From positions 2,356,001 to 2,420,000 of the forward strand of contig NZ_CP097349.1 of the NCBI RefSeq assembly GCF_023516215.1: a stretch of 64,000 nucleotides of DNA, in the 5' to 3' direction. The notes under the pieces were generated by a model. It made no database searches, was not told the DNA's origin, and saw only the letters and a program-made list of their open reading frames with translations. The position numbers were made by a program, and so were the translations under genes. Positions 38,664 to 42,888 of this stretch are shown here, piece after piece. The stretch comes from Cytobacillus pseudoceanisediminis (GTDB taxonomy: Bacteria > Bacillota > Bacilli > Bacillales > Cytobacillaceae). Every line of letters begins with the position of its first letter. Positions within the stretch are counted from its first letter, which is position 1.

Positions 38664-38776
38664 ATCGGGCAACACCGATCATGAAGAGCAGAATAAAAGC
38701 GGAAGCGCCTTGATCAGCTGAAGTTCAACTAAAACCGCCACGTCCTGTATATTTTATAAATTCCTAAACTATAAAA

Positions 38777-38808
38777 AAGCCGTCCCTAACAACATATAGG
38801 GACGGCTT
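38777..38808. repeat. Left 32-bp target duplication (terminator hairpin)
   Basis: A perfect palindromic hairpin with 12-bp arms AAGCCGTCCCTA and TAGGGACGGCTT around loop ACAACATA. Identical to 40368-40399, it abuts the left IS end (CAGTTTGTAGACAAA). On the minus strand it is followed by TTTTATAG, the original U-tract. Confidence 0.92.
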
Positions 38809-38820
38809 CAGTTTGTAGAC

Positions 38821-38859
38821 AAAAAGAGTTCGGAATAGTCTCATTCCGAACTCTTTTTT
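38821..38859 (-). terminator. Transposase terminator inside the IS
   Basis: Perfect AAAAAGAGTTCGGAAT/ATTCCGAACTCTTTTT stem with a 6-nt loop between the transposase stop and the left IS end. Confidence 0.88.
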
Positions 38860-38918
38860 CATTTTTTGTAGGACTTCAAGTAATTACAGAGAATTGCAGA
38901 CCTCTCCGAGGTTATCAT

Positions 38919-40277
38919 TTAGGCCATTTCTGGACCTTGCCAAGTCCAGTTGGCCATTTTCTTCAAATTCATGGCAGCGAAAGTAAGCATCGCCTGCATC
39001 GACATTTTTTTAAGTCCCCTGAGGGTTGTCCAACGCATGCCATGCTTTTCTTTTGCATCTGCGAATACTCGTTCAATTGTTTCTTTGCGTTTTTCATAGA
39101 TCGGTTTGACGTCTTGATGGTGGCGAAGATGATCTGCTTCTTCCACATGTTCCTCCCACACATGACGTTGAATCAGTTTTTGATGTGCTTGACTCTGTGT
39201 GCATTGAGACAAGAAAGGGCATCCAGCACAAATTCGAGGATCTGATTTATATTGACGATACCCTTCCTTTGTAGTTGTAGTATATTTTAATATCTCACCA
39301 GTTGGGCAAATGTAACAGTCAAAATGCTCATCATAAACATACTCATGTTTTCTGAAGAAACCCTCTTTTGTGCGAGGTCGTGTGTAAGGTAAAGCAGGTG
39401 TGATGTCGTTTTTCAATAAGTAGCTCGTGATAGCAGGTGTTTTATAGGCTGCGTCTGCCGCAACAGCTTTTGGTTTACTAACTTTCTCAATGACTTGTTC
39501 TACCAATGGCTCTAAAATATGACTATCATGCGTGTTACCAGGGGTTACAATTGCGCCTAACACGAAGCCGTTGCGGTCTGCGGCCGCATGGAAAGAATAA
39601 GCGAACTGTTTTGTACGCTCATCTTTTACATAGTAGCCACTCTCTGGATCTGTTGTACTTTCCTTGATTTCTTTGTATTCTTCTTTATCAAACTTATCTG
39701 GTGGAAACGGCTTTTTTCCATGATCCTCGCGGTCTTGGTTAATCTCCTCTTGAAGGCGTTCTTGATAAGCACGGGTTTCTTTTCGAACAACTTTCTTTTC
39801 AAATTTGCGTTTATTTGCACTCGCTTTTACATGAGTAGAATCTACAAAAACGTGTTCAGCACTAATTAAATTCTTTTCAGCTGCGGTTTTTAAGATTCGG
39901 TAAAATATTTGTTCAAAGAGATCGGTGTCTTTAAATCGGCGCTCATAATTTTTACCGAAAGTTGAGAAGTGAGGAACTTTATCGTGAAAGCCATATCCTA
40001 AAAACCATCGATAAGCCATATTCGTTTTCAATTCTTCAATTGTTTGACGCATGGAGCGAATACCGAAGGTATATTGAATAAATGTGAGTTTAATTAATAT
40101 TACAGGGTCAATACTTGGGCGGCCTTTTTCTGAATACTTATCTTTTACCAAGTCATAGATGAATGAGAAATTAATCGCCGCTTCAATTTTGCGGACCAAA
40201 TGGTCCGCCGGTACAAGTTCGTCTAAAGCAACCATTTCAATTTGATCCCGTTGAATTGGATTATGTTTTGAAAGCAT
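38919..40277 (-). CDS. IS1182 family DDE transposase
   Basis: A 452-residue transposase with the family N-terminal domain (PADHLVRKIEAAINFSFIYD, GRPSIDPVILIKLTFIQYTF) and DDE triad in HVFVDSTHVKASA, VAADAAYKT and TIERVFADAKEKHGMR. A cysteine cluster (CYICPTGE...CAGCPFLSQC) between the second D and the E is typical. It catalyses cut-and-paste or copy movement of the IS. AGGTGATTTAA precedes ATG 40277. Full length and uninterrupted. Confidence 0.95.
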   Translation of the reverse strand: MLSKHNPIQRDQIEMVALDELVPADHLVRKIEAAINFSFIYDLVKDKYSEKGRPSIDPVILIKLTFIQYTFGIRSMRQTIEELKTNMAYRWFLGYGFHDKVPHFSTFGKNYERRFKDTDLFEQIFYRILKTAAEKNLISAEHVFVDSTHVKASANKRKFEKKVVRKETRAYQERLQEEINQDREDHGKKPFPPDKFDKEEYKEIKESTTDPESGYYVKDERTKQFAYSFHAAADRNGFVLGAIVTPGNTHDSHILEPLVEQVIEKVSKPKAVAADAAYKTPAITSYLLKNDITPALPYTRPRTKEGFFRKHEYVYDEHFDCYICPTGEILKYTTTTKEGYRQYKSDPRICAGCPFLSQCTQSQAHQKLIQRHVWEEHVEEADHLRHHQDVKPIYEKRKETIERVFADAKEKHGMRWTTLRGLKKMSMQAMLTFAAMNLKKMANWTWQGPEMA

Positions 40278-40367
40278 TTAAATCACCTCAAGCATTGTAT
40301 TACTTCTATTTTAAAATAAAAAAGACTGCAGACAAGCACGATTTTCATCGAGTTTGTCGACAGTCTG

Positions 40368-40399
40368 AAGCCGTCCCTAACAACATATAGGGACGGCTT
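40368..40399. repeat. Right 32-bp target duplication (terminator hairpin without U-tract)
   Basis: Identical copy of 38777-38808. It lies 3 nt after the stop codon of the minus-strand gene at 40403, so it is the natural terminator hairpin. On that strand it is now followed by the IS end CAGACTGTCGAC instead of T residues. Confidence 0.92.
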
Positions 40400-40402
40400 T
40401 TC

Positions 40403-40693
40403 TTAATCCTCTGGATAATTCACATACTTTTCTGGTTCATTTTGAATCTGATTAAGCATCACTTCTATTAATTCACGGGGAAAACGGCTCTTTTTCCGTT
40501 CTTTATCCTTAGAATAATGCACAAAGTACATTAGATCATCTTTCTCAACTTCGATATCAGAAATCTTATGCTCTTCTGAAAGAATGTCAAAAAACATTTT
40601 TTCTGTGTCTGCTGCTGCTGTATCATCCGGACGTTTATCACAGACAATTTTTATCGTTAACCAGTTATACAGTGAATCCTGCAAAGATTTCAT
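40403..40693 (-). CDS. Conserved hypothetical protein downstream of ylaH
   Basis: A 96-residue acidic soluble protein (SLYNWLTIKIVCDKRPDDTA...EKYVNYPED) with no recognised motif. CGGGAGAGG precedes ATG 40693, 15 nt after the ylaH stop, so it is the last gene of a typA-ylaH transcript. The IS has inserted into its terminator. Function unknown. Confidence 0.72.
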   Translation of the reverse strand: MKSLQDSLYNWLTIKIVCDKRPDDTAAADTEKMFFDILSEEHKISDIEVEKDDLMYFVHYSKDKERKKSRFPRELIEVMLNQIQNEPEKYVNYPED

Positions 40694-40708: not shown

Positions 40709-41023
40709 TTATTCCGCCTTTGCCTGTTCTTTCTTTTCCTGGTGAAGGCGGATTTTATAGATAATCAAGATTAACGCAGCCACAACAAGACCTTCTGCTA
40801 CAGGAAGGAATACCCCAAGAAATGTAAGCACGGTACATCCTAAAATCAAGAAGGTATATATAACAGCTGATTTTATTATAGGAAGTTTCTTGGCAAAACC
40901 TAATTTAAAAACCAGTATGGATAGTAGAACAATTGTTATATATAGAAGCCACATTCCAGTTGTGGGATTCTCATGGACTTTGAACAAAGCAGCGAAAAAA
41001 GAAAGGCGCTGTGAAACATCCAT
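40709..41023 (-). CDS. ylaH: YlaH-like membrane protein
   Basis: A 104-residue protein with three hydrophobic helices ([53 protein letters not shown]) and a basic C-terminus, matching YlaH in length and position next to typA. Function unknown. AGGGGAGGAGAG precedes ATG 41023. Confidence 0.86.
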
Positions 41024-41049: not shown

Positions 41050-42888
41050 TTAGTTAGTTTCAGCGTATTTCTTCTTTTTGGCCATTCTTTCACGTTCATT
41101 TTTATCAAGAATTTTTTTGCGCAGTCTGATTGACTCAGGTGTTACTTCAAGCAGCTCATCATCATTCAAATATTCAAGAGCTTCTTCAAGAGTCAAAATG
41201 CGCGGCTTTTTAATTACATTCGTTTGATCCTTATTAGCAGAACGGATGTTGGTTGCATGCTTCACTTTAGTGATATTGACAGTAAGGTCATTTTCGCGAG
41301 TATGCTCTCCAACTATCATTCCTTCATAGATTTCAGTACCTGGTTCAACGAAAATGGTACCTCTATCCTCTACTTGCATAATACCATATGTGGATGACTT
41401 TCCGCTTTCCATGGAAACAAGCACACCCTTGCTTCTGCCTCCGATTTGTCCTTTAATTTCAGGCTGGTAGCTGTCAAATGTGTGATTGATAATACCATAT
41501 CCGCGAGTAAGCGTCATAAATTCTGTGGAGTAGCCAATTAGTCCGCGGGCTGGGACGTTGAATGTTAGTCGCACTTGGCCATTTCCGTTATTGACCATAT
41601 CAAGCATTTCACCTTTACGTGTACCCATTGATTCAATGATTGAGCCGGTATTATCCTCTGGCACATCAATTTGAACACGTTCTACCGGTTCGCAGCGAAC
41701 ACCATCAATCTCTCTAATAATTACTTCAGGCTTGGAAACCTGTAATTCAAAACCTTCACGGCGCATATTTTCAATGAGGATTGATAAATGAAGTTCTCCA
41801 CGTCCAGATACAACCCAAGCGTCAGGTGAATCTGTATTTTCGACACGAAGACTCACATCTGTCTCAAGCTGGGCACGCAATCTTTCTTCAACTTTTCTGG
41901 CTGTAATATACTTTCCTTCTCTTCCTGCAAATGGGCTGTTATTTACAACGAAAGTCATTTGCAATGTTGGCTCATCTATTCTTAGAACAGGAAGTGCTTC
42001 CTGATGCTCGACAGGACAGATGGTTTCTCCAACGTTGATGTCCTCCATTCCGGAAACAGCGATCAGATCTCCAGGAAATGCTTCTTGAATTTCCTCGCGC
42101 TTAAGCCCGAAGAATCCAAAGATTTTTGTAACGCGGAATTGCTTGACCGAACCATCAAGCTTCATTAAAGCAACTTGCTGGCCGACCTTGATTGTTCCAC
42201 GGAATACACGGCCAATACCGATTCTTCCCACATAATCATTGTAATCTAAAAGGGCAACCTGGAATTGGAGCGGCTCTTCACGATTATCAGCAGGTGCTGG
42301 TATGTGGTCAATAATTGCTTCATAAACCGAATGCATATCATCATCCTGTTTATCAGGAGTAGTACTTGCAGTCCCAGCAATAGCTGAAGCGTATATGACC
42401 GGAAATTCAAGCTGGTCTTCGTCTGCACCAAGTTCGATAAATAAATCGATAACCTCATCAACAACTTCTGTTGGGCGGGCAGATTCCTTGTCAATTTTAT
42501 TTACTACTACGATTGGTGTTAATTTTTGCTCCAAAGCCTTTTTGAGTACGAAACGCGTTTGAGGCATACACCCTTCATATGCATCAACTACTAATAAGAC
42601 ACCATCAACCATTTTCATGATACGTTCTACTTCACCGCCAAAATCTGCGTGGCCAGGCGTATCCAGAATGTTAATCCTTGTATCTTTATATTTAACTGCA
42701 GTGTTTTTAGCTAAGATCGTAATACCGCGTTCTCTTTCCAGATCATTTGAATCCATCGCGCGCTCTTCCACATGCTCATTTGAACGGAAAGTCCCGGACT
42801 GTTTTAAAAGCTCGTCAACCAATGTTGTTTTACCATGGTCAACGTGGGCTATAATTGCAATATTTCGAATATCTTCTCTTAATTTCAA
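41050..42888 (-). CDS. typA: Translational GTPase TypA/BipA
   Basis: A 612-residue GTPase of the EF-G/EF-4 family that acts on ribosomes under cold or stress conditions and in 50S assembly. G1 [11 protein letters not shown]3 DTPGHADF and G4 NKID are at the N-terminus, followed by domain II, EF-G-like domains and the BipA-specific C-terminal domain ([20 protein letters not shown]). TTG 42888 follows AGGAGGA. Called ylaG in B. subtilis. Confidence 0.96.

Follow-up and report, generated by a model that had tools for sequence, protein, structure and literature searches.

Insertions of an IS1182-family insertion sequence (IS) of Cytobacillus pseudoceanisediminis and of its relatives carry a complete hairpin on either side. 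Such hairpin repeats were found at many sites, with a single hairpin at empty sites; they vary in length, their boundary lies about 1 nt outside the stem, and most sites are symmetric. Judged from the sequences, it is well supported that the shape of the hairpin guides the element to its target, rather than any fixed sequence or length. Our preferred reading, which we hold to be probable, is that the DDE transposase recognises a short hairpin by its shape, the terminator palindrome most likely being extruded as a small cruciform and both joints being made just outside its 5' feet. The copy from which the analysis departs lies in the window, which here means the whole stretch of 64,000 nucleotides that was analysed.

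The element and its target terminator

The IS at the window site (38809..40367, minus strand) is 1559 bp long, has CAG ends and is present in 13 full copies in the genome. As the earlier note had described and a repeat search confirmed, it lies between two identical repeats of 32 nt, 38777..38808 on the left and 40368..40399 on the right, each of which is a perfect hairpin with 12-bp arms and an 8-nt loop. Folded as single-stranded DNA, the two repeats reached -13.7 and -13.8 kcal/mol, and 0 of 200 shuffles were as good. Both were taken as the copies of a target-site duplication. Sequence and end comparison gave the terminal inverted repeats CAGTTTGTAGACAAA (38809..38823, plus strand) and CAGACTGTCGACAAA (40353..40367, minus strand), with 12 of 18 end bases matching, which is a feature of the IS1182 family.

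The transposase of 452 aa (38919..40277, minus strand) carries the Pfam domains DUF772 and DDE_Tnp_1_6 and belongs to the family by its score of 475 bits against the NCBIfam model NF033551, 'IS1182 family transposase' (cut-off 270). The DDE transposase domains PF13751, PF05598 and PF01609 were all above their cut-offs. Residues D146, D275 and E402 are invariant in alignments of 18 and 19 rows and presumably represent the catalytic DDE. A sequence search for a solved structural relative of the transposase returned none, the best E value being 0.2 and the names unrelated. Near the left end of the IS, downstream of the transposase gene, repeat search, folding and terminator scan located a strong, terminator-like internal hairpin with 16-bp arms and a 6-nt loop (38821..38858, plus strand). 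No flank of the 13 genome copies resembled an insertion of the IS into itself.

On the host side, the hairpin ends a transcription unit on the minus strand. In the list of open reading frames (ORFs), its last ORF is 40403..40693 (96 aa), the stop of which is 3 nt from the hairpin, and the upstream ORFs of the same unit are 40709-41023 and 41050-42888, to one or both of which we take the name typA/bipA to belong. Read on the minus strand, the left copy of the hairpin still has the original terminator's T-tract, and the right copy is followed by the IS end in place of the T-tract. The terminator scan of the minus strand listed the distal copy alone (38776-38809); in the gene-proximal copy, the T-tract has been replaced by the IS end. 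A gene-proximal hairpin that lacks a T-tract would be expected to allow some read-through into the IS.

Insertions in the genome and in related bacteria

The 13 genome copies are all at least 99% identical, and all 13 adjoin hairpins on both sides, with a hairpin that differs from site to site. Exact flanking repeats of 18-32 bp were found in 11 of them; in L003 and L009, the two repeat copies differ by one indel and one mismatch, respectively. A stricter hairpin test, which required a stem of at least 7 bp with one mismatch allowed and ending at most 2 nt from the IS, was failed by L003, with its mutated copy, and by L008, the stem of which has 6 bp.

DNA matches to the element were obtained in 33 of 61 genomes from the genus and its neighbouring families and in 128 of 397 genomes of the order. 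They gave 87 end pairs, from which five were dropped (the second pairs in L079, L116, L128 and L149, and L178, which is truncated at a contig end); the 82 both-ended insertions that remained had been picked regardless of repeats. Loci without both end motifs were left uncounted and comprise elements of other clades, sites that are empty, fragments, and some relatives whose ends are altered (L037, L125, L159 and L198-L200 among them), several of which showed hairpin repeats. A direct repeat of at least 15 bp was present in 77 of the 82 insertions and exact in 74. The other five are also flanked by hairpins on both sides: L003 and L127 have mutated copies of one hairpin, and L029, L172 and L209 have two different hairpins. 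L256 is likewise flanked by two different hairpins.

A scan of named genomes yielded 80 loci, of which 35 were added, five repeated earlier ones and 40 remained unscored, as no repeat was found or the ends were unrecognised; the added insertions were chosen for recognised ends and repeats, not for hairpins. The resulting 112 insertions with long direct repeats represent at least 110 sites, as the members of each of the pairs L006/L080 and L117/L120 may share a site. By the stricter test, 112 of 117 both-ended insertions had a hairpin on either side (L132 and L326 also failed at the 7-bp stem), and a hairpin on one side was found at 160 of 4000 random window positions. The earlier note had proposed to collect further insertions of the IS and its close relatives and had named fixed-length repeats unrelated to hairpins as the result that would speak against it. 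Long hairpin repeats of variable length were found at 13 of 13 genome copies and 77 of 82 relatives, the other five relatives having hairpins on both sides as well, and fixed-length repeats of the kind named were not seen in either set.

Some individual loci deserve mention. L108, L109 and L110 are internally deleted derivatives (513, 539 and 379 bp) with both IS ends and with hairpin repeats that contain 1-2 mismatches; they may have been moved by a transposase acting in trans. L117 (genome G221) and L120 (G335) are corresponding sites, with left flanks 93% identical over about 1.5 kb; related ISs occupy the same hairpin in both and have repeats of 19 and 23 bp, which may reflect two insertions with cuts 2 nt apart. 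In genome G662, each of three copies of an IS1182-family element (L225-L227) sits in one and the same repeated inverted sequence.

Empty sites

For the window site, 19 related loci were compared, and in none of the 19 does the IS lie between the flanks. Thirteen align through one complete hairpin, five alignments begin inside the right arm and one begins after it. The nearest relative at the hairpin is L060, with 97.5% identity across 362 columns that span it. Several relatives have a T-A pair of the stem swapped for C-G on both arms, and the hairpin has therefore been maintained. The assignment of the hairpin, made in the earlier note, as the terminator of the unit that includes ORF 40403 is borne out by this conservation, by the compensatory changes in some of the genomes and by the nearby stop. 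At a second site, that of copy L011, one hairpin is present in 11 of 11 relatives, whose alignments run across the site; beside this terminator, L448 among them has about 42 additional nt with a hairpin of their own.

The single hairpin at the two empty sites means that the insertion made the second hairpin copy. A different origin of the repeats, in which the second hairpin existed beforehand or was produced when IS copies recombined, would find a place at L029, L172 and L209 (3 of the 82 insertions) and at L256. Their two different hairpins indicate that recombination between copies does happen, and at these four loci it is probably the explanation. As a general account it is hardly credible: it is refuted for the two sites where the empty locus holds one hairpin (in 13 of 19 alignments, the other six being partial, and in 11 of 11), so that the empty site with two hairpins, which the earlier note had set against itself, was not seen; and the two copies are identical in 74 of the 82 insertions.

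The boundary of the duplication

Over the 112 insertions with long direct repeats, each base at one end of the duplication was compared with its counterpart at the other, with the ends of unrelated sites as control. Counted from outside, positions 2-7 were complementary in 107, 109, 109, 109, 110 and 109 of the 112, compared with 0.49 to 0.26 in the control. Position 1 was complementary in 87 of 112 (control 0.75) and position 0, just outside the duplication, in 82 of 112 (control 0.66), and positions further out were near the control. Since pairing is constrained from the second base inward, the duplication consists of the stem-loop plus about 1 nt per side. The outermost pair is not a Watson-Crick pair in 15 of the first 77 sites, and the second pair is one in 13 of those 15. 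The length of the duplication ranges from 18 to 42 bp and correlates with arm length (r = 0.81, 77 sites). Seven perfect pairs from the second base inward were present in 67 of 77 duplications versus 354 of 63,955 x 25 segments of the window, defined by start and length, which rules out a chance match.

These results modify the claim that the whole stem-loop and nothing more is duplicated, with cuts at the base of the stem. The whole stem-loop is duplicated, but about 1 nt is added on each side, and the boundary accordingly runs about 1 nt beyond the constrained stem. In 49 of 77 sites, one or more additional Watson-Crick pairs, mostly between an A-tract and a T-tract, are possible outside the cut, which is therefore not simply at the end of all pairing. 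At the window site, the stem can be extended to 14 bp through flanking A-T pairs, and whether exactly the hairpin was duplicated can thus not be judged from that site alone.

The base composition of the ends raises the question whether the sequence of A-tract/T-tract borders might be recognised, each strand being cut 5' of A-rich, AAG-like sites and the hairpin being an incidental feature. Of 154 strand ends, 136 have A as the 5' base of the duplication, and L205 and L311, which are asymmetric by about 3 and 5 nt, start with A-rich words on both strands. Recognition of such borders would leave unexplained that pairing at position 1 and in the flanks does not exceed that of unrelated sites, while at the inner positions it occurs in 107-110 of 112 although no sequence is shared, and that 5 of 77 targets are without a T-run of 4; we regard it as very unlikely. 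A base preference, or the A-tract of the terminator, may still help to set the cut.

Targets, orientation and proposed mechanism

A T-run of at least 4 lies on one strand beside 72 of 77 targets. Long flanks are available for 71 insertions: in 40 of these, one gene ends at most 60 nt away and reads into the hairpin, 15 lie between a convergent pair and 16 have no such gene. From the T-runs and from the genes that read into the hairpins, most of the targets appear to be intrinsic terminators, with a T-run that is not universal.

No preferred orientation relative to the T-tract was found over the 112 insertions, the stronger T-tract running with the transposase in 23 and against it in 23, with 66 ties. 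Relative to a single adjacent gene, the direction was the same in 24 and opposite in 16 (p 0.27); the remainder of the 112 comprises 15 convergent pairs, 16 insertions without such a gene and 41 with flanks that were too short. Co-orientation of the transposase with the terminated gene, which had seemed to be present in the 13 genome copies, was gone over the 112 insertions (24 versus 16). The absence of an orientation preference is as expected of a target with two-fold symmetry.

DDE transposases normally produce a duplication of fixed length, because the spacing between the two points of joining is held constant. In the preferred reading, the terminator palindrome would be extruded from double-stranded DNA as a small cruciform, and the 3'-OH ends would attack just outside both 5' feet of the extruded hairpin, in keeping with the symmetry of a transposase dimer or complex. 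Both 5' feet would sit at the junction, so that the joints would be near in space at any stem length and the length of the duplication along the sequence would vary. Gap filling would then copy each hairpin strand and leave one full hairpin per side.

Alternatively, the target might be a hairpin on one strand only, formed in single-stranded DNA of the replication fork or in a transcription bubble or R-loop at the terminator, with the second strand cut opposite to it. The same kind of target has been proposed for other hairpin-seeking elements, and the prevalence of active-looking terminators, with the T-runs described above and with a gene ending no more than 60 nt away and directed into the hairpin in 55 of the 71 long-flank insertions, would fit. 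However, both ends follow the same rule of about 1 nt, and a one-stranded target would predict an orientation preference relative to the gene or the T-tract, which was not found, so that we consider it unlikely. Of the earlier suggestion that the transposase recognises the cruciform or hairpin itself, the recognition of shape is upheld, as pairing is kept without a shared sequence; that this shape is a cruciform rather than a one-strand hairpin is what we infer.

Relationships within the IS1182 family

In a midpoint-rooted tree of 52 transposases, for which the program warned that several long branches meet, the hairpin duplicators form one clade of 31 rows (support 100/98). Thirty of these were labelled A; 26 have matching hairpin repeats and two have two different hairpins (G598 and E. 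faecalis), ISEfa7 was readable on one side only and G526 is cut by a contig end. The 31st row, G499, also carries hairpin copies. The clade spans Clostridia and Rhizobium too, and the copy on a Rhizobium plasmid, at 42% identity, has a 26-bp repeat with one mismatch.

A second clade (support 100/99) holds IS1272, ISSau3 and seven others and places IS1272 apart from the duplicators, with different ends. The copies read from it show no clear long repeat, except for L403/L375 (the same place in G579), which has a 21-bp direct repeat with a 6-bp hairpin, unlike the other copies read in that genome. The flanks of elements ending in GGGGCTGT resemble an A-tract on one side and a T-tract on the other. 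Comparison of G584 with G433 and G741 as empty sites showed a terminator hairpin in the relatives, but about 170 bp of the right flank remained unmatched. Replacement of the hairpin was considered for these GGGGCTGT-ended members; the 21-bp repeat of L375 with its small hairpin speaks against simple replacement.

A third, small clade (support 99/98) shows repeats of 8-9 bp over the hairpin loop in 3 of 3 both-ended sites (L343, L344 and L353, in genomes G445 and G433), of which L344 and L353 are near-identical elements; a fourth locus lacks both ends. These IS1182-family elements end in ...CCACTGAAAAA, and their short repeats correspond to the loop duplication drawn as pathway c by Wan et al.

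A distant element in G519 (L237-L239, L423-L442), with several tens of copies, short repeats and no hairpins, provides an internal contrast within the family model; hairpin-length repeats were absent from the 23 copies examined, except at one tandem-repeat locus. This contrast bears on survivorship, by which the IS would insert widely and the insertions in terminators alone would survive, being harmless to genes. Terminators are in general safe sites, but selection on location cannot place a boundary about 1 nt outside stems of varying length, and the 23 copies in G519 have short repeats. Survivorship as the cause of the pattern thus seems most unlikely.

Taken over the family, we tend to favour the view that, in part of IS1182, the DDE transposases are guided by shape and dock onto a hairpin in the target DNA. 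The element would be joined outside both 5' feet in the duplicator clade, with the whole hairpin duplicated (18-42 bp), at the 3' feet in the IS1272 clade, with the hairpin lost, as published, or beside the loop at the three third-clade sites, with 8-9 bp duplicated. The length of the duplication would then be set by the structure of the target and not by the geometry of the enzyme.

Comparison with known systems

Duplication length is usually a fixed mark of a DDE transposase and here follows hairpin size, from 18 to 42 bp, under the rule of about 1 nt, which makes structure-guided target choice directly testable. Targeting of terminator hairpins explains how the element multiplies while mostly sparing genes, and the insertions naturally mark palindromes that possibly form hairpins in the living cell. 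Seen beside the published IS1272, one family has two opposite outcomes, the hairpin being either kept twice or lost.

Group IIC introns also insert next to intrinsic terminator hairpins, but they are RNA-based retroelements that use other machinery and do not duplicate the hairpin. The HUH enzymes of IS200/IS605 likewise make use of DNA hairpins, which are those of the element's own ends, whereas the IS described here has a DDE transposase that acts on target hairpins.

The closest systems are IS1272 and TnSha1 of staphylococci, which belong to the same family and target inverted repeats of varied sequence and length, several of them terminators, and for which recognition of shape and a cruciform model were likewise proposed (PMC5678879, PMC4923244). 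Furi et al. (2016) reported that IS1272 and TnSha1 target hairpins including terminators, with deletion and no duplication (PMC4923244). The IS1272 data of Wan et al. (2017) support hairpin replacement (pathway a), and in their Fig 13 duplication (pathway b) and duplication of the loop (pathway c) are shown as no more than possible routes (PMC5678879). The joining at the 5' feet proposed here corresponds to their pathway b. Siguier et al. (2015) is cited for palindrome-targeting IS1182 members, for which, according to the citing papers, it supplied no detailed data (PMC5678879, PMC4923244), and an IS1182 member with 4-bp repeats is listed in a further source (PMC3196728).

No report of whole-hairpin duplication in the IS1182 family was recognised in the literature searched, which was mostly judged from listings, with subscription papers and ISfinder lying outside it, where relatives such as ISBsp5 may carry such a note. 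Hairpin targeting in the family is already known from IS1272 (PMC5678879, PMC4923244), and the duplication of the whole hairpin is, within the literature searched, the new part. The element shares with IS1272 the choice of a hairpin as target irrespective of its sequence. In contrast to the replacement described for IS1272, in which the hairpin is deleted and nothing is duplicated, it keeps the hairpin and duplicates it.
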